Position numbers and translations under genes: made by a program
Part shown: piece by piece, positions 20,405 through 34,742 of the stretch
Position numbering within the stretch: position 1 is the first letter of the stretch
Layout of the letters: each line of letters opens with the position of its first letter
Notes under the pieces: model-generated
What the model was told of the DNA's origin: nothing
What the model saw: only the letters and a program-made list of their open reading frames with translations
The model's database searches: none
Origin: Oscillospiraceae bacterium
Lineage (GTDB): Bacteria > Bacillota > Clostridia > Oscillospirales > QAMX01
Assembly (NCBI GenBank): GCA_015067715.1
Contig: SVLY01000011.1
Coordinates: 1-57,980, forward strand
Direction: 5' to 3'
DNA: 57,980 bases

Positions 20405-21757
20405 TCATTCCGGACGGACGAACGTTCCCGTTTCCCCGTCGTAATACCAGGGACTGTCCACCGTTCCGTCAAACATATCGGATTTTTCCACGTAAACAAG
20501 ACGCGCCGCCTTTTGATAAAGCACCTTTTTGCCGTTCTCCGTTGCTTCGTACTGCGCATCCTCGTAGGTCTCTCCGTCGTTGTAATATTTGTATATCACG
20601 CCGTTTTCGCTCTCCATGACCGTTTCTGCAAGCCAATAGGTACCGTTCTCAAAATAACGGGATATATCAACCTTGCTTCCGTCACTCATCCGGCGAAAAA
20701 CGAACTTTCTCTGCGAAGACCCGACAGCAGGACTGTATGTGTCACCCTCGTAATAGAGTGAAAACATTCCGACCGTTGTGCAATTCATGACCTCTTCCGG
20801 ATCAAGCTTTTCACCCGTGGTCATGCTGAGATAACAAGGGTCCGGATACCCGGGAATGTAGATCGCCCCCGTCACAGGATAGATCCCCTCAATATACGAT
20901 CCGGAGACTTTTCCTGCCGCCATGGCTTCGGTAAAGATCGCCGCACAATCCGTCTCAACGCACTCTCCCGTTTCAAGATCCAGACAGTAACCAAAGCGCC
21001 GGTCGTATTCCACGCCGATATGGGTATCGGTGACCTCAGTTATGTATATATTCAAAGAAAGGCCGTCGGCAGTCATAAAGTGCCCCAGCGTTGTGAACTC
21101 TTTTGTTTCAAGATCGTAACATACGATCCAGCTGTTCCTTTTTACTCCCGGCTCATAGTCTGCAGAGTCGAAGATAACTGTATAGACCTTACCGTCTTTG
21201 GCATGGGTCTGCGCAAAAGCCAGAGAAGGACTTTCCGCAGGCTGACCGTCCTCCCGGACGAGAGATTTCATGCTGAAGCTTTTGGTATCCATCAGAGTTC
21301 CGTCCAGGGAAAAATAGAAAAATGTATACTGGTGTATCTCCGAAGGACCGTAGTTCTTAAAACCCGTGTGTCCGATAACAATCATGTCTTCGTGGATATT
21401 CCAATACGATGAACCGGGAACATAGTCGGCAATATTTGCAAAGCACTCCTCAGTATCGTGGGTACAGGCCGGGTCCATGCACGCAGGCAGGATCACCTTG
21501 GATCTTTCGTCAAAAATATACATTAAAAAATTACTTCCCCACTCGTCCACAGGGAAGTCTTCTCCGTGGTAATCGTAACTGCTCATGGCGCCATACGCCC
21601 CACCCTTCACAGGCCTGTACTGCCCCTGGGAAAGTGTCATATGGTCAAGCAAAAGCCCGGGAATGGCATCGTATTCATAATTCTCTTCCCCGCCCCCACA
21701 CGCCGCAAGGGACATCAGCATAAGCACGGCGGCCAAAAGACAAACAAACTTTTTCAT
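20405..21757 (-). CDS. Lipoprotein, paralog 2 of a tandem pair
   Basis: A 450-residue predicted lipoprotein with lipobox 'SLAAC' (Cys at about 19). It has no family I recognise; the long alternating beta-type sequence suggests a propeller-like or beta-sandwich fold. A Cys/His motif 'CMDPACTHDTEECF' sits near residues 97-110. It is clearly homologous to the gene just upstream (21779-23143), sharing 'THIGVEYDRRFGYC' and 'ETDC', while the last 34 residues are nearly identical. Spacing between the two is 21 bases, so they are co-transcribed. Confidence 0.75.
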   Translation of the reverse strand: MKKFVCLLAAVLMLMSLAACGGGEENYEYDAIPGLLLDHMTLSQGQYRPVKGGAYGAMSSYDYHGEDFPVDEWGSNFLMYIFDERSKVILPACMDPACTHDTEECFANIADYVPGSSYWNIHEDMIVIGHTGFKNYGPSEIHQYTFFYFSLDGTLMDTKSFSMKSLVREDGQPAESPSLAFAQTHAKDGKVYTVIFDSADYEPGVKRNSWIVCYDLETKEFTTLGHFMTADGLSLNIYITEVTDTHIGVEYDRRFGYCLDLETGECVETDCAAIFTEAMAAGKVSGSYIEGIYPVTGAIYIPGYPDPCYLSMTTGEKLDPEEVMNCTTVGMFSLYYEGDTYSPAVGSSQRKFVFRRMSDGSKVDISRYFENGTYWLAETVMESENGVIYKYYNDGETYEDAQYEATENGKKVLYQKAARLVYVEKSDMFDGTVDSPWYYDGETGTFVRPE

Positions 21758-21778
21758 AATCTGTCCCCCTTTCAGGTT

Positions 21779-23143
21779 TCATTCCGGACGGACGAACGTT
21801 CCCGTTTCTCCGTCGTAATACCAGGGGCTGTCCACAGTTCCGTCAAACATATCGGATTTTTCCACGTAAACAAGACTTGCCGCCTTTTGGCACAAAACGT
21901 CCCGTCCGTTTATCTCTTTTATGATCTGCTCATCCTCGTAGGTCTCTCCGACCTTATAATACTGGTAGATAACACCCTTTTCACTTTCGAGCATCACGCT
22001 GTTGAGGCTGTAGGCACCGTCTTCAAAGATACGGGATATCAATATCGGCTCTTCATCCTCCGCACGCTGATAGGCCCACAGTTTTTCGTGATTTGGACTC
22101 ATCACATCGTAATAAAGCTCACCTTCGTAATAGAGTGAACCTATGGTGGTATACGAACTGCTCTCAACCTCCGAGACTTCAACCGCTTTGCCTGTATCCA
22201 TGCTTATGAAGGTAGATTTCGGGAAACCGTTGGACTTGATGAGCCCTTTTATCGGAAGAATCAAACCGATGTTACCGTCTGACGGAGCCTCTCCGGCAGA
22301 CTGAGCCTTTGTGAATATCTCTGTACAGTCTGTTTCAACGTACTCGCCCGTTGTGCGGTCAATGCAATACCCAAATCTTCTGTCATACTCCACGCCTATG
22401 TGGGTTTCAGTAAATTCACATATATTGACAAAGCTCGCATACATATCCGGCACAAGATAATTGCACACAGTCCGGAACTGCCTTGTGGAAAGGTCGTATT
22501 CAATCAACCATCGGTTACACCCGCCGTCTCGGTTCCGAATGTCGCCGGCATCTGCCAGATCCAAATAGACCCTTTCCCCGTCGGTTGCATACGACGTGAT
22601 CACACCCGGGCTTTTTATCAGCTCCCCATCTGCTCTCACAAGCGCAGTGAGGTCGTAGCTGACAGAGTCAAGCAAAGTACCGTCAAAAGAAAAATAGTAA
22701 GCGTTGGCTGTGTAAGGCGTTTGTTCTCCCGCATGCTCCCGACTGAATGAGCTGGACACAACGACAATGGAATCCTCCGAAACGTTCCAATAACACGTGA
22801 AGGCCCCCAACATCGCCTTTGCAAAACAGCTATTATCTTCATGGAGGCAGGTCACGTCACCGCAAACAGGAAATAAGACTTTCGTTTCCTCATCAAAAAG
22901 AACAAACAGCACTTCTCCTCCCCAGCTGTCACGGGGAATGTCCTCACCGAGAAAGTCGTTTTGAAGCATCATTCCAAATGACCCACCCTTTATGGGTCTG
23001 CTCTTTAAGCCGCGAAGATCATAAAAATCAAGTCGTATCCCGGGAATACGGTCGTATTTATACTGTACCCGCCCGGTTCCGCAGGAGGTCAGGAGGCCCA
23101 GGAGCAAACAAATACAAATTAATGTAAATATCCGTTTTTTCAT
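21779..23143 (-). CDS. Lipoprotein, paralog 1 of a tandem pair
   Basis: A 454-residue predicted lipoprotein (lipobox 'LLTSC', Cys at about 21 from the chosen ATG at 23143). It shares the whole architecture of the next gene, including 'CGDVTCLHEDNSCF', which aligns with the Cys/His motif there, and an almost identical C-terminus 'MFDGTVDSPWYYDGETGTF'. Function unknown; a surface-exposed binding or sensing role is inference. It is the first gene of the pair, behind a good promoter at 23185-23213. Confidence 0.75.
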   Translation of the reverse strand: MKKRIFTLICICLLLGLLTSCGTGRVQYKYDRIPGIRLDFYDLRGLKSRPIKGGSFGMMLQNDFLGEDIPRDSWGGEVLFVLFDEETKVLFPVCGDVTCLHEDNSCFAKAMLGAFTCYWNVSEDSIVVVSSSFSREHAGEQTPYTANAYYFSFDGTLLDSVSYDLTALVRADGELIKSPGVITSYATDGERVYLDLADAGDIRNRDGGCNRWLIEYDLSTRQFRTVCNYLVPDMYASFVNICEFTETHIGVEYDRRFGYCIDRTTGEYVETDCTEIFTKAQSAGEAPSDGNIGLILPIKGLIKSNGFPKSTFISMDTGKAVEVSEVESSSYTTIGSLYYEGELYYDVMSPNHEKLWAYQRAEDEEPILISRIFEDGAYSLNSVMLESEKGVIYQYYKVGETYEDEQIIKEINGRDVLCQKAASLVYVEKSDMFDGTVDSPWYYDGETGTFVRPE

Positions 23144-23184
23144 CAACAGTTTCAACCTTTCCGCCGCAGCTTTTCTTTATTATT

Positions 23185-28847: not shown

Positions 28848-28928
28848 ATGGCTTTCCTTCCTGTTGATAATTGACCTAAGATTTATTATATCATGCTATG
28901 TCAATCTTGTGTTACTATTTTGTTAACT

Positions 28929-28955
28929 AAAAACCCTTTATCTTAAAGAGTTTTT
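28929..28955 (-). terminator. Weak terminator-like hairpin
   Basis: AAAAACcCTTTA pairs imperfectly with TAAAGaGTTTTT, just downstream of the DERA-like gene on the minus strand. AT-rich and short; low confidence. Confidence 0.4.
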
Positions 28956-28963
28956 AACCCGCG

Positions 28964-29665
28964 TCAGAAGATATCTCTCTGGGGAAGCTGAATGGGGCGC
29001 TCAGCGGCCTGGTCCAGTATCTGGGCCGAATAGGGGGTTATCACCCAGTCCGCTCCGGCATCCACAAGCTCTTCCACCTGGGCAAGGGTGCGTATGCCGC
29101 CGTTGGCGATGCATTTCACCCGGTTTCCCAGCATATCCCGGATGCGGGCGATCTCCTCCGGGCGGGTGCCCGTGGCGCCGTAGCCCGTTGCGGTGATTAT
29201 GCCCGTGGCGCCGATATTGTCCGCGATCTTGCAGGCAATTTTAAAGAATCTGTCGTTGAGAAAACAACTGTCGAAGGCCACGTAAACGGGAATGCCCCGT
29301 CTGAAGGCCGTGAGTGTGACGGCTTTGAGATCCTGCTCGGCATACTCAAACTTTTCGGAAACCAGCCTGCCCATGTTTGCAACGGCAATTATCTCCTTTG
29401 CGCCGTCGTCGATGAGCTTCTGGGTCTCGGCGACCTTGATGGAGGTGTCCGTTGAGCCGTGGGGAAAGGCAACTGCCGCAACAACGGGTCTGCCGCTTCC
29501 TCTCAGGTGGCGCTCGGCATCCGCAACGTCACAGGGACGAACACAGAGGCTCCGAAGATTCCGGGAAGCAACCAGAGAGCTCCCCTCCTTCAGCGCGGCA
29601 GAGCCGCAGTCCGGGCGCATAAGATTGTGCGAAAGATACCCCGCAAGCTTACTTGCAGATAACAT
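28964..29665 (-). CDS. DeoC/DERA-like protein lacking key catalytic residues
   Basis: A 233-residue TIM-barrel protein clearly related to deoxyribose-phosphate aldolase: 'LSHNLMRPD' aligns with IDHTLLKPD, 'SLCVRPCDV' with SVCVNPCYV, 'AFPHGSTDTSIKVAET' with GFPLGANTTEVKAFET, and 'VKCIANGGIRT' with VKAAGGIRT. However, the Schiff-base lysine (usual KTSTGF) reads 'IITATGYG', Ile157, and the essential Asp (usual DMVINIG) reads 'IIAVANMG', Ile93. Only the second lysine (K184) is kept. It is unlikely to be a standard DERA. It ends the lexA-led gene run, 34 bases after a CYTH gene. Confidence 0.75.
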   Translation of the reverse strand: MLSASKLAGYLSHNLMRPDCGSAALKEGSSLVASRNLRSLCVRPCDVADAERHLRGSGRPVVAAVAFPHGSTDTSIKVAETQKLIDDGAKEIIAVANMGRLVSEKFEYAEQDLKAVTLTAFRRGIPVYVAFDSCFLNDRFFKIACKIADNIGATGIITATGYGATGTRPEEIARIRDMLGNRVKCIANGGIRTLAQVEELVDAGADWVITPYSAQILDQAAERPIQLPQRDIF

Positions 29666-29699: not shown

Positions 29700-30308
29700 T
29701 TACAGCCCTCTATGTGAAAGCCTGTAGAGCTCGCACCGCGCCCGCTTTGACTTGGGCTGGGGCTCGAGGCTGTATTTTTCTTTCAGATAGCTTTCCAAAC
29801 TGCCAAGGGCGGCTTCGTCTCCCGAGATCAGCTCGCCTTCGGCCTCGAAAAAGATATTGTCCTCTCCTCCAAGCCAGCCGCCGTCCAGAGCAAGCTCGAT
29901 CTCCGCGCCAAATACGGAGACCCTCTTTTCCCGCCGCAAAAACTCCGCCCGAACTCCGGGAACGGGAGCTCCCGCGCGGTCAAAAAAACCGTCGAGGGAA
30001 AATTCCTTTCTCATCCGGGCAACGCCCTCTTCAACGGAGTCAGCGTCAATCTCGTATTCCGTCCGGGAAAACACCCCATTCTCAAGGGACCCGTCCAGTT
30101 TAAGGGTGACCCTGCCCCGTCCGGACTCCCAACGGAACCGGAGAGATGCGGAGCTGCTCTTCGCGAGGCCGGGAAGATCGTAATAGACCGAGCGCTGCTC
30201 CAGAACACGCTCCTCTCCCCCGGCAAAAAGGGGGTCGGCGGCGATCCGCTCCAAAACCTCTGCCGATGGGGCAGAAAGCTTTATCTCAAGCTCTTTTCCG
30301 GGCTTCAT
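29700..30308 (-). CDS. CYTH-domain (triphosphate tunnel) protein
   Basis: A 202-residue protein with the CYTH start signature E-x-E-x-K in 'GKELEIKL' (residues 4-11), then the alternating charged strands of a triphosphate tunnel fold: 'SVYYDLPG', 'ASLRFRWESGRGRVTLKLDG', 'RTEYEID', 'AEIELALDGG', 'IFFEAEGEL'. Family members hydrolyse inorganic triphosphate, thiamine triphosphate or ATP to cAMP, using a divalent metal; the substrate here is unknown. The start overlaps the end of the P-type-ATPase-like gene by four bases, so the two are coupled. Confidence 0.85.
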   Translation of the reverse strand: MKPGKELEIKLSAPSAEVLERIAADPLFAGGEERVLEQRSVYYDLPGLAKSSSASLRFRWESGRGRVTLKLDGSLENGVFSRTEYEIDADSVEEGVARMRKEFSLDGFFDRAGAPVPGVRAEFLRREKRVSVFGAEIELALDGGWLGGEDNIFFEAEGELISGDEAALGSLESYLKEKYSLEPQPKSKRARCELYRLSHRGL

Positions 30309-32524
30309 TTGTCGCTGTGGCTCTTGCGGTGGCGGATGATCGCGCCGCCGAGCTCGTAGATCATAAGGCTGACCGCGCCGGGAACAAGGGTGAGGGGAAT
30401 GTGCTTATAGGGCAGAGCCTCCATGGAGAACACGCCGGAGATGCCGTTTACAACTGCGGGCAGAAGGACCGCAACGAACACAAGGGCGGTGGCCACGATG
30501 AACTTTACGCCTCCGGGCTCGTCCTTCAGGGAAATGCAGGATTTTCCCCAGACGCGGCAGATAAGGTTGTTTACCAGCATATAAAAACCGATGCAGACCA
30601 GCGCCGCGCTGCAGGCGCCGCCGGGCCCCACGACCTCCATAGTGTAATAGGAGCCGAAAATATAGGAAGCAAAAACGGCGGTACCCAGGCAGTTCAGAAT
30701 ATTCCAGCAGGCAAGCCCGTAGCCGGAGCTGATCGGCGGCTCTGCGGCGGTGCTTTTGCCCATCATAAGGGACATCATAAAGCCCTTGGTGGGTGCGACC
30801 TCCATTTTCGCGGTGAGAAGCATCTGAGGAAGGGGCAAAAGGGCGGTGAGCACCAGCATTGCGCCGATCCCAAAGGGCACGGAGCCGTAGGCCACAAGGG
30901 TGAAGAGTGAGACCAGCATGGCGCAGACGGGAGCGCAGAACATCTGGTACTCGCCCCGGCGGGCAACGGCGCAGACGGATCTGGCCACACGGGCAACAAG
31001 GGAAACGTCCTCAACGGAGCAGTTCCTGCCCACGAAATCTGTGCTCATATCTCCCCCTGAGGAGGACACCCGAACGTCCGCAAAGCGCAGAAGCTCGTCC
31101 GAGCCGGAACGGGAGGCGGCCATCACCACCCTGTCCGCAGAGAGCAGACGGACAAGCGCCCTGCGGTGGGGCGCGGCGGCCTCGGCGCAGAGCCTTGCAT
31201 GACGGGCGGCGCGCACCAGGTTTTCGTGGCGGAAGTTTTCAATTCTTGCCCCTGTGAGCACCTGGCTCATATCCCGGGCAACGCCCAGCTCACGGGCGTG
31301 GTAAAAAGCGCAGTTTTCGTTTTCTTCGCTGACGTAAACGGGCTCAACGCCAATGCCCTTCAGTTCTCTGACGCTCTCGCGGGCCTCTTCGGAGATGATG
31401 CAGTTCATGTGGAGCAGACCCACAAGAGTGAGCTCTCCCTCCCGCCCGGACTCCTCGGCAACCGCAAGGACCTCACGTCCGGCAGAATAGGTGCGGCGCA
31501 GATGAAGGCGGAGATGGCGCATATCCGCCTCCCCAAGGGGGTGCAGACCAAGCTCGTCCGCCTCGAAGCCGATATGGGGGAAAAGCGCGTCCGGCTTGCC
31601 GGCGTATACGGTACGCTGACGCCCCTCGCTGTCGGTATACGTGGCCGCGGCATAGCCCACCCCGGGGTCGTAGGGGTGAAATTCCGTAACGTGGAGAGCA
31701 AATCGGGAGTTGTGGTCGAAAAACGTGGTACGAAGGGCCCGGAGAAGCCCGTCGGTTATCTGCTGTCTGAAGCCGAATGCGGCGGAAAGTGCTCCGTCGT
31801 CGCAGACGTAGATGGCGGAAAGCAGGGGGTAGATCTCACCGAAGGTGAGCTCGGAAACGCCGTAGGCCTTACCTTTTATGTATACGCCGCCGGTCTCGGT
31901 GCCCTTTGAAGCAAAGAAGACCGATTTGTCCGCCAGAACGTATTTCACTCTTGCGGCCTCCCCCAGCTTGTTGGGGTCGCCCACTTCGATGTCCCGCTGT
32001 TTCAGGGCGACGATGCCCCCGGAGACGGCGATGACCGCAGGAAGCTCGACCCCCATCGCCGCCGATGCGGAAAGCACGGCAAAAACGCTGAGAAGAGTTC
32101 CGTATTCCCCAACACCGCCCCATATGGCGCGGATAAGGCAGACGATAACACAGACGATGCCCAGAGCAAGGGGGGCAAAGCGGAGCACAAGGGCCATGCG
32201 AAGGCCGTTCTCGGTATATTTTCCGGTGTAGACTGAATACATAAGCCGTCTGAAGGCGGCTCTGTCAAGGCTCATAAGGTCACGGTGCTGTCTTTCTGCG
32301 CCGAAAACGCAGATCCCCGCCACCAAAAGACAAACCGCCGCGGCAATTGCCTCTGCCACACGGTCGCCTAAAAACAGCATCAGCACGGCGCAAACGCCGA
32401 AAAGCGCCGACGCTAAAAGCTCCGCGCTTATAACAAGACTCATCATATCCCCAAGGGCAAGCCTGGATTTTGCCGGCTTTTCTTCGGGGGTATTGTTTTC
32501 TGAAAGTTTTTCCTGGGTAAGCAT
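30305..32524 (-). CDS. Degenerate P-type ATPase-like membrane protein
   Basis: A 739-residue membrane protein with P-type ATPase layout: four N-terminal helices (about 25-75 and 108-170, the last with 'GVELPAVIAVSGG' in place of PEGLP), a cytoplasmic region (about 175-525), and about six C-terminal helices. The catalytic signatures are altered: 'LADKSVFF' (199-203) replaces DKTGT; 'VYVSEENE' (397-402) replaces the TGD segment although 'EARESVRELKGIGVEPV' before it is typical; 'VMAASRSGSDELLRFAD' (467-483) replaces GDGxND. No A-domain with TGE exists: only about 35 residues separate helix pairs 1-2 and 3-4. I infer a non-pumping pseudoenzyme. Confidence 0.75.
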   Translation of the reverse strand: MLTQEKLSENNTPEEKPAKSRLALGDMMSLVISAELLASALFGVCAVLMLFLGDRVAEAIAAAVCLLVAGICVFGAERQHRDLMSLDRAAFRRLMYSVYTGKYTENGLRMALVLRFAPLALGIVCVIVCLIRAIWGGVGEYGTLLSVFAVLSASAAMGVELPAVIAVSGGIVALKQRDIEVGDPNKLGEAARVKYVLADKSVFFASKGTETGGVYIKGKAYGVSELTFGEIYPLLSAIYVCDDGALSAAFGFRQQITDGLLRALRTTFFDHNSRFALHVTEFHPYDPGVGYAAATYTDSEGRQRTVYAGKPDALFPHIGFEADELGLHPLGEADMRHLRLHLRRTYSAGREVLAVAEESGREGELTLVGLLHMNCIISEEARESVRELKGIGVEPVYVSEENENCAFYHARELGVARDMSQVLTGARIENFRHENLVRAARHARLCAEAAAPHRRALVRLLSADRVVMAASRSGSDELLRFADVRVSSSGGDMSTDFVGRNCSVEDVSLVARVARSVCAVARRGEYQMFCAPVCAMLVSLFTLVAYGSVPFGIGAMLVLTALLPLPQMLLTAKMEVAPTKGFMMSLMMGKSTAAEPPISSGYGLACWNILNCLGTAVFASYIFGSYYTMEVVGPGGACSAALVCIGFYMLVNNLICRVWGKSCISLKDEPGGVKFIVATALVFVAVLLPAVVNGISGVFSMEALPYKHIPLTLVPGAVSLMIYELGGAIIRHRKSHSDK

Positions 32525-32566: not shown

Positions 32567-32971
32567 TCACTCGCCCCGATCAAGGGTGAGATTGTCTATT
32601 CCGTTTCTGGTAAACTCGGCCATGTATTCTTCAATTCGGGCACCAAGCAGGTCGCTGTCCGCCCCGTCCACGTCCCGGTCGCGAAGGTCTCTTCTGGCAA
32701 GCTCCTCGGCAAGGATGCCGTAAAAAACACTGTCCTCATAGTCCAGAATTGCCTCATGAATGCCGCCCTCAACGTATTCCCGGGAGGGCTCACAGCCGTT
32801 TTCACAGAGAAGCCCCAGCCCCGCAGAGTCGCAGTGGGCAAAAACGATCCTCTGGACCTTGTCGTACTGGCGGATGCGGTCGCCCTCTCTGGTGGAGTTG
32901 AGCACCCAGTTTCCCGAATAGACCATGTCCAGCAGAAGTCTGAAATCACGGTCAGAAAGCTGTAAAATCAA
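32567..32971 (-). CDS. Acidic soluble protein of unknown function
   Basis: A 134-residue protein, strongly acidic, with no signal peptide or membrane segment. It begins 'MILQLSDRDFRLLLDMVYSGNWVLNSTREGDRIRQYDKVQRIVF', which looks helical, and has two cysteines near the middle ('AHCDSAGLGLLCENGC'). I do not recognise the family. It lies 20 bases after lexA and 42 bases before the P-type-ATPase-like gene, all on the same strand with no terminator between, so it is likely co-transcribed with them. Confidence 0.8.
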   Translation of the reverse strand: MILQLSDRDFRLLLDMVYSGNWVLNSTREGDRIRQYDKVQRIVFAHCDSAGLGLLCENGCEPSREYVEGGIHEAILDYEDSVFYGILAEELARRDLRDRDVDGADSDLLGARIEEYMAEFTRNGIDNLTLDRGE

Positions 32972-32991: not shown

Positions 32992-33582
32992 TTACATATC
33001 GCGCATAAGCGCACAGACCTTGCCCAGAATGCGGCAGTTTTTGCCGTCGATGGGCTCGTAAGCGGGGTTCTCGGGCATAAGCATGGCGTGCTCTCCCTCA
33101 AGGTTGAGGCGCTTTACGGTAGCCTCGTCCTCAAGAAGGGCGACCACGATGGTGCCGTTGTCCGCAGTTTCCTGTTTTCTCACCACAACGATGTCCCCGT
33201 CCAGAATTCCGGCGTTGATCATGGAATCTCCCCGGACTCTCAGACCGAAATACTCCGCGCCGGGCTTTCCCTCGTAATAAACACAGCCCTGTTCCTCTTC
33301 AAAGGCGAAAATGGGCTGACCGGCGGTGACACGGCCAAGTATCGGCACGCGAACGCTCTTCTTCGCACCGGGAAGGGTTATGGTGCGCATTTTTTTGGTA
33401 TCTTTATTTATATAGCCCAGCTTCTGAAGCCTTGTAAGATACTGCTGGACGGAGGAGGGGGATTTCAGCCCCACACCGGCGCATATCTCTCTCACAGAGG
33501 GCGGAACGCCGTTGCTCTCAACAAAGGAACATATATATTCGTATACCTGGGCAAGCTTGCCCTCAAGAACGTCATTACTCAC
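32992..33582 (-). CDS. lexA: LexA repressor (SOS response)
   Basis: A 196-residue LexA. An N-terminal winged helix (about 1-65, 'PPSVREICAGVGLKSPSSVQQYLTRLQKLGYI') is followed by the S24 autoprotease domain, with self-cleavage site Ala87-Gly88 ('VTAGQP'), nucleophile Ser120 ('RGDSM') and Lys158 ('ATVKRL'). DNA damage, through RecA filaments, triggers cleavage and derepression. It leads a five-gene run on the minus strand. I found no canonical GAAC-N4-GTTC operator at its promoter, so autoregulation is not proven. Confidence 0.96.
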   Translation of the reverse strand: MSNDVLEGKLAQVYEYICSFVESNGVPPSVREICAGVGLKSPSSVQQYLTRLQKLGYINKDTKKMRTITLPGAKKSVRVPILGRVTAGQPIFAFEEEQGCVYYEGKPGAEYFGLRVRGDSMINAGILDGDIVVVRKQETADNGTIVVALLEDEATVKRLNLEGEHAMLMPENPAYEPIDGKNCRILGKVCALMRDM

Positions 33583-33634
33583 GGTTCAACCTCCCCGGTA
33601 CACCCTCTGTCAAATGGCATACCGTCTTAGGTTA

Positions 33635-33662
33635 ATTATAGCAAATATTCGTCTCATTGTAA
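33635..33662 (-). promoter_or_regulatory. Probable lexA promoter
   Basis: TATAAT (33635-33640) with TTACAA (33657-33662) 16 bases upstream on the minus strand. The spacer holds an imperfect ACGAATATTTGCT that might be a divergent operator. Confidence 0.55.
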
Positions 33663-33864
33663 AGCCCCGAAGACATAAAACACCTAAAACCCGCCTAAAA
33701 TCCCCGGGGTTTTCATAGAAAACCGGAGAATTGTGCCGCATTTTCTTTACCCTGTAAAAGTTTACCCGATCCCTTACGGCAAAAAAATATTTTGCACCCC
33801 AACGCTTCCGGATAAACCTCCGGAAAAAAAGTCCGGCGGAACAAAAAATAAAAAGAAAAAACTA
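33663..33864. other. Intergenic region between lexA and the sugar operon
   Basis: About 200 bases with short GC and AT blocks (for example a CCGGGG...TTTTC...GAAAACCGG segment near 33703-33726) but no gene, long hairpin or repeat I can support. Confidence 0.4.
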
Positions 33865-33893
33865 TTGAAAAATTCACCGTAAAAAAGTATAAT
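33865..33893 (+). promoter_or_regulatory. Promoter of the isomerase-hydrolase-dehydrogenase operon
   Basis: TTGAAA (33865-33870) and TATAAT (33888-33893), 17-base spacer, about 50 bases ahead of the first start codon. Confidence 0.85.
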
Positions 33894-33944
33894 CAATGTG
33901 TAAATAAATTCCGTGTCACCGTACAAAGGGAGGAAAGTAACCCC

Positions 33945-34742
33945 ATGATCAAGCTCGGCGCAAACACAGTTCTTTATAAGCCCCACACCTTAAGAGATGC
34001 CGTTGAAAATCTTTCGAAGATCGGCTACGACGGCTTTGAGATCTCTGCCATCAAGGGTATGTGCGAACACCTTGACCTGGACAACTGGAAGGATCAGAAA
34101 AACGAGATCCGCGAGCTCTGCGAGGAATTCAACATGGAGATCCTTGCCTCCGAGGTCGCATCCAGCGATCCCGCCAGACTCACAGTTGCCTTCGAGGCCG
34201 CCCGTGAGATCGGAATTCCCGTTATAAACATCGGCCCCTTCGGCGCAAGCAACAACGAAGAGGATCTTAAAAACTGCATCGCCCACATGGAAATGCTGGC
34301 CGGGCTTGCCGAAAGCTATCAGGTGAACCTCTGCGTCAAGGCCCACGTCGGCGCCTCCATCTACAGCACCCCCACCACTCTCGCCCTTATCGAAGCCTTT
34401 AAGAACCCCTATTTCGGCATCGACATGGACCCCAGCCACATCTTCCGCGCAGGCGAAGAACCGGAAAAGGCTCTTGCCTCCGTTCTGCCCGCAATGAAGC
34501 ACATCCACATCCGCGACTGCCCCCACAGACTCCAGAATCCCGGCACGCCCTTTGAGCAGATCTGCGGCACCGGCCTTATCAACCTCAAGGGCTACGTCGG
34601 CGAAATGGTGGCCCAGGGCTATTCCGGCCCCGTGGATCTGGAGGTCATCGGACCCGACCTCAGCCTTGCCGACTGCAATATCGTTGCCGCCGAAACCTAC
34701 GGCTACCTCAACGCTCTGCTGAAGAGCCTTGGCGCAAGATAA
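33945..34742 (+). CDS. Sugar phosphate isomerase/epimerase (xylose-isomerase-like TIM barrel)
   Basis: A 265-residue AP-endonuclease-2/xylose-isomerase-like barrel. Candidate metal ligands are in 'LASEVAS' (Glu), 'FGIDMDPSHIFRAG' (Asp and His), 'HIHIRD' (His) and the final 'VDLEVIGP' (Glu). Proteins of this family isomerise or epimerise keto-sugars or inosose and very often sit beside Gfo/Idh/MocA dehydrogenases, as here. GGGAGG precedes the ATG. It is the first gene of a four-gene operon. Confidence 0.88.
   Translation: MIKLGANTVLYKPHTLRDAVENLSKIGYDGFEISAIKGMCEHLDLDNWKDQKNEIRELCEEFNMEILASEVASSDPARLTVAFEAAREIGIPVINIGPFGASNNEEDLKNCIAHMEMLAGLAESYQVNLCVKAHVGASIYSTPTTLALIEAFKNPYFGIDMDPSHIFRAGEEPEKALASVLPAMKHIHIRDCPHRLQNPGTPFEQICGTGLINLKGYVGEMVAQGYSGPVDLEVIGPDLSLADCNIVAAETYGYLNALLKSLGAR

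Follow-up and report, generated by a model that had tools for sequence, protein, structure and literature searches.

Can a protein built on the plan of an ion pump be kept by selection for something other than pumping? What defines P-type ATPases is a phosphorylated Asp together with an A domain that drives dephosphorylation and gating. The window, meaning the whole 57,980 nt stretch analyzed here (contig SVLY01000011.1 of assembly GCA_015067715.1, Oscillospiraceae bacterium, forward strand), encodes a pseudo P2-type ATPase, here named pATPase. A sequence-only reading of this DNA had proposed that the protein is not an ion pump but a maintained pseudoenzyme. That proposal is well supported by a P-type fold without an A domain, by motif losses shared among homologues, and by low dN/dS. 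Judged from sequence, pATPase is almost certainly a maintained membrane pseudoenzyme derived from a P2A-type (PMR1/LMCA1-like) pump. Its features are as follows.

30305..32524, minus strand: pATPase, 739 aa, ten predicted membrane helices.
32276..32419, minus strand: M1-M2 hairpin, residues about 36-83 (model helices H17-52 and H56-83), aligning with M1-M2 of intact pumps.
32177..32290, minus strand: residues about 79-116, a short M2-M3 linker in place of the TGE-bearing A domain of intact pumps (alignment, model).
31916..31930, minus strand: DKSVF at the DKTGT position, residues 199-203, with Asp retained and TGT lost (alignment).
31325..31333, minus strand: VSE at the TGD position, residues 398-400 (alignment).
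31094..31120, minus strand: AASRSGSDE at the TGDGVND position, residues 469-477 (alignment).
30311..30964, minus strand: M5-M10, residues about 521-738, a Pfam Cation_ATPase_C-like end (Pfam, model).

The reading frame at 30305-32524, reported earlier with the strand unstated, is present on the minus strand as 739 codons with an ATG start and no internal stop; the plus-strand translation contains several stops. As a single sequence, pATPase matched only Cation_ATPase_C in Pfam, below threshold. Its top NCBIfam family was TIGR01522 (PMR1-type; E 6.7e-9, residues 127-496), with a score of 34 bits against a family cut-off of 798, which places it below the curated limit for P2A (PMR1/SERCA-type) membership. 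A profile of six homologues matched Listeria LMCA1 at E 3e-26 over positions 98-722. pATPase is homologous to P2-type (PMR1/LMCA1-like) cation pumps, far above chance, and the homology extends over the P and N domains and the membrane helices. An AlphaFold model, built from four sequences only (mean pLDDT 62, P domain mostly 70-87), shows the ten-helix P2 plan, with long hydrophobic helices arranged 4 + 6 around a P-N insert (M4/M5). All 50 PDB matches listed by Foldseek were P-type pumps, the best being SPCA1 (E 2.8e-15); global TM-scores were modest (0.36-0.47), so the model supports the fold and not its fine detail.

Homologues of pATPase were found in eight genomes from five genera of one family of uncultured Clostridia, and they fall into two types that are about 15% identical. 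Type A is carried by the window genome, G002, G006, and G015; in G001 a contig end preserves just its C-terminal piece. Type B (G008, G014, and G018), at about 15-16% identity to the window protein, was recognized through the same flanking neighbours, and hhalign gave E-values of 7.6e-6 (G014) and 4.5e-4 (G008). The named records of three of the bearer genera are MAGs, among them Oscillospiraceae bacterium SIG491 and, from sheep rectum, Clostridia bacterium RGIG6452. Across 295 genomes of the order, the remaining matches that were read, which do not include a 747 aa frame (G273:C20), were intact pumps. No further pATPase was found among 391 genomes of the class (E 1e-42) or 399 of the phylum (E 1e-40), where the two matches were intact pumps; with cut-offs this strict and scoring confined to the top candidates of each genome, highly diverged members may have been missed.

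The absence of an A domain, claimed in the sequence-only reading, is borne out by both alignment and length. Against intact pumps the family profile aligned in two blocks, M1-M2 (about 15-84) and M3-M10 (about 113-730), and skipped the roughly 130 residues that make up the A domain. For comparison we used 44 intact pumps drawn from related genomes. The segment preceding the phosphorylation Asp measures 172-205 residues in the homologues (198 in the window) versus a median of 330 in intact pumps, while the span from Asp to GDGxND is 271-273 in type A and 253 in type B (median 276), and the length after GDGxND is 253-269 (261-269 in type A; median 268). The P and N domains are of normal size; the A domain alone, with its TGE, has been excised. 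Structure prediction had been suggested as a check on this point, and the model and its Foldseek matches do show a P-type fold lacking the A domain.

When aligned with the same 44 pumps, DKSVF, VSE, and AASRSGSDE fall on the DKTGT, TGD, and GDGxND columns, as previously placed, and neither a true DKTGT nor a true GDGxND, named earlier as contrary evidence, occurs elsewhere in the protein. The claim that the catalytic signatures are lost holds for TGD, GDGxND, and TGT, but the phosphorylatable Asp survives in all four type A proteins (Asp351 column, D[KQ]xxF). In type B this column carries Asn in the best alignment, with a nearby Asp alignable at the cost of a gap; on that alignment the phosphorylatable Asp is probably lost in type B. 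Type A retains the Asp without TGT, and type B would then lack the whole motif. Thr353, Gly354, Thr355, Gly626 and Asp627 (of TGD), Arg678, Lys684, and Asp703 are lost in all six aligned homologues, which lack both TGD and GDGxND. All six have Glu in the Arg678 column, and the family shows no variation at R444, A447, and E448 (window numbering), so it has conserved positions of its own.

The genes around pATPase bear on what such a protein could do.

29700..30308, minus strand: CYTH/triphosphate tunnel metalloenzyme, 202 aa, ELEIK and other conserved residues intact (Pfam, alignment).
32567..32971, minus strand: small conserved helical protein, 134 aa, directly upstream of pATPase in both types (neighbourhood).
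32992..33582, minus strand: lexA, which opens the putative transcript in type A genomes (Pfam/NCBIfam, neighbourhood).
28964..29665, minus strand: deoC-like aldolase, closing the cluster in the window (NCBIfam, neighbourhood).
33635..33663, minus strand: TTTACA-17-TATAAT, promoter-like by consensus match alone, lying upstream of lexA and carrying TG ahead of the second hexamer.

The four-base overlap with the CYTH gene, already noted from the sequence, is an ATGA at 30305-30308 shared by the pATPase stop and the CYTH start. In type A the gene order is lexA, small helical protein, pATPase, CYTH, and in most cases a deoC-like gene, with hisS (and aspS) following in relatives; in type B it is small protein, pATPase, and CYTH, with no adjacent lexA or deoC. 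Comparison of the two orders leaves small protein, pATPase, and CYTH as the invariant core. The small protein lies upstream and CYTH downstream wherever the contig covers that side, in both types (in G001 and G018 the contigs end there and the core is only partly visible). The link between pATPase and CYTH survives changes in the other neighbours from genome to genome, which makes it much stronger than a four-base overlap.

The CYTH protein scores above the Pfam cut-off and carries ExExK with the conserved Arg, Lys, and Glu residues; E6, E8, K10, R57, R59, K70, R82, E84, R125, D142, E155, E157, E159, and K188 are invariant in eight sequences. In a tree, the pATPase-linked CYTHs cluster together and exclude the remaining CYTHs of the same family (support 86/95, which is moderate and accompanied by long branches). 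pATPase and CYTH are also the fastest-diverging genes of the cluster, at similar rates: between the window and G001, identity is 35% for pATPase and 44% for CYTH, and 69-86% for the other cluster genes. No match to PP_kinase was found in seven pATPase genomes, which makes a ppk-based polyphosphate role for this CYTH unlikely.

The 134 aa protein is predicted to be all-helical; its model is of low confidence with no PDB match at E <1, and searches of Pfam, NCBIfam, PHROGs, and PADLOC gave no match, leaving an unnamed family. It is kept in 52 of 197 sampled genomes of the order (about a quarter) and, in the loci read elsewhere in the order, occurs without an accompanying CYTH or pATPase. A defence or phage system was considered and rejected, with no PADLOC match for pATPase, CYTH, or the small protein and only a weak "ATPase" match for pATPase in PHROGs. 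LexA-box control was also rejected: the stretch from lexA to the divergent gene (33583-33945) is free of the canonical Gram-positive LexA box (GAACnnnnGTTC), even with one mismatch allowed, so the LexA site of this clade may differ. Downstream, hisS (in some with aspS) follows the CYTH/deoC genes in four relatives; in the window (28848-28963) hisS is absent and a GldA-like ABC gene comes directly after. Farther away, the two lipoproteins encoded side by side at 20405-23155 (450 and 458 aa) resemble each other in their N-terminal parts, and their genes have the look of a tandem duplication.

In a genome of the same bacterial family (G005:C114, L183:5996-8961), a CYTH gene overlaps the gene of a 774 aa P-type ATPase that is intact, its TGE, DKTGT, and GDGVND all present. 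This pump belongs to a different subfamily and does not match the pATPase profile, and the pair is apparently a second, independent CYTH/P-type neighbourhood. An origin of pATPase from that subfamily was rejected, as P2A pumps match the family profile and this pump fails it.

The constancy of the CYTH neighbour suggests that pATPase could be the membrane partner of a CYTH triphosphatase, a role to which we give at best an even chance; that pATPase is a conserved pseudoenzyme and also such a non-pumping partner falls slightly short of one. Common transcription, or a relaxation of constraint common to both genes, can also produce the shared neighbourhood and matched rates. Unlikely, though the best of the competing accounts, is that pATPase acts as a sensor or regulatory subunit with a partner other than CYTH, for instance an intact P2 pump in the same cell, or that it is a lipid receptor. 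pATPase genomes do encode intact P-type ATPases, and TMEM94 has been described with bound lipid and no nucleotide at its proposed phosphorylation site (PMC12134183); against this, the small helical protein and CYTH are the only genes that consistently adjoin pATPase, and the loci read show no intact pump nearby.

A second account retains transport in an unorthodox form, with a solute (Mg2+, another ion, or a lipid) moved passively or by atypical chemistry at the retained Asp. All four type A proteins have the Asp, so some chemistry could remain, and ERMA likewise keeps its Asp, where D427N is reported to abolish Mg2+ uptake (PMC13322241). The cation ligands argue otherwise. All six homologues lack the TM4 Glu along with the Asn and Asp of TM6, the TM4 Pro is also gone with the exception of one Pro, and the membrane helices carry few charged residues. 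"GVELPAVIAV", earlier taken for a PEGLP-like remnant, does not stand as one: across the four type A homologues the Pro column reads A/V/S/P and the Glu column M/S/V/P. As aligned, the loss of the TM4 and TM6 ligands also speaks against an ion sensor relying on the ancestral site. Lys492 and Arg560 are lost in all six homologues and Lys515 in type A, and most ATP-contact residues are gone from the family. The A domain, which gates transport, is absent, and type B is also without the Asp by best alignment. We consider a transporter of this kind improbable. On established P-type chemistry, the loss of nearly every element of phosphorylation, dephosphorylation, and ion coordination leaves no Post-Albers cycle.

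The sequence-only reading had suggested homologue collection and dN/dS as a check; the same motifs proved to be lost across homologues, with dN/dS far below 1 where measurable. Among three type B species of one genus, dN/dS for pATPase was 0.06, 0.13, and 0.19 (dS 1.0-1.6), similar to neighbouring genes. Purifying selection on type B is shown by these values, which mark a maintained pseudoenzyme and not a decaying gene. Type A offers no close pair, and its dN/dS of 0.38-0.52 comes from near-saturated synonymous sites; the value of 0.52, for the window against G001, covers 144 codons only, also near saturation. For type A we infer purifying selection from intact frames and kept domain lengths. 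A functionless pump gene in slow decay would account for the fast divergence (26-30% identity between type A genera) and for the higher type A ratios, and the fast rates, as in the window-G001 comparison, could mean weak constraint. Nonetheless, every fully covered copy is an open frame with no stops or frameshifts, domain lengths are kept, type B ratios are low in three species, and R444, A447, and E448 are invariant at 15% identity, making decay very improbable. A split pump with its A domain supplied by another protein, suggested by the clean loss of that one module, can practically be set aside: the P-domain motifs are lost too, the adjacent 134 aa protein is predicted all-helical and has no TGE, and the substantial A-domain matches in seven bearer genomes all lie in ORFs of at least 471 aa, with only two short matches, both at contig edges.

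The family is thus a real one, a group of pseudoenzymes from P2 pumps kept by selection, for which we infer a function from its neighbours. In the reading we prefer, that of a pseudoenzyme partnered with CYTH, a P2A-type pump has had its A domain deleted and its catalytic, most ATP-contact, and cation-binding residues lost, and what is left would serve as a ten-helix membrane platform or receptor. The retained P-N headpiece may dock the CYTH triphosphatase made from the overlapping gene, and pATPase may either keep CYTH at the membrane or control its activity upon binding a ligand; the small helical protein from the upstream gene would be a likely third component. In sum, pATPase, descended from a calcium-type ion pump and found in several uncultured gut bacteria, probably has a new, non-pumping job. 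More tentatively, a P-type fold without an A domain may have become a membrane receptor or scaffold controlling a triphosphate-cleaving enzyme, an arrangement for which we found no described bacterial counterpart. A selected lineage lacking the A domain and phosphorylation motif shows that the P-type fold has non-pumping uses, and the constant CYTH neighbour supplies a concrete candidate partner.

In the open-access literature we found no description of a bacterial pseudo-P-type ATPase, of the pATPase family, or of a CYTH/P-type pair; subscription papers may differ on the former two. P2A Ca2+-ATPases (Listeria LMCA1, lmo0841, and SPCA/PMR1) are the best relatives in sequence and fold over M1-M2 and M3-M10; pATPase, unlike them, lacks the A domain, the catalytic motifs, the TM4/TM6 ligands, and most ATP-contact residues. 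With CYTH/TTM inorganic triphosphatases (e.g., PDB 5a60) it is the downstream neighbour, not pATPase itself, that shares ExExK and the conserved set. The closest precedent, by analogy, would be the disputed human TMEM94/ERMA, which, like pATPase, has a ten-helix P-type fold near SPCA, with DKQGI for DKTGT (Asp kept), GSSANL for GDGVND, and no TGES (PMC12134183, PMC13322241). In TMEM94, which carries a bound lipid, one group detected neither ATPase activity nor Mg2+ and saw the proposed site free of nucleotide (PMC12134183); another reported ERMA-mediated Mg2+ uptake dependent on the Asp of DKQGI and abolished by D427N (PMC13322241). TMEM94/ERMA, an animal ER protein, retains an A-like CTD1 along with a large CTD3 of about 400 residues, whereas pATPase, compared here by description only, lacks the A domain entirely and has its gene coupled to that of a CYTH protein. 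Whether TMEM94/ERMA pumps is in dispute, and pATPase offers a compact bacterial point of comparison for that question.
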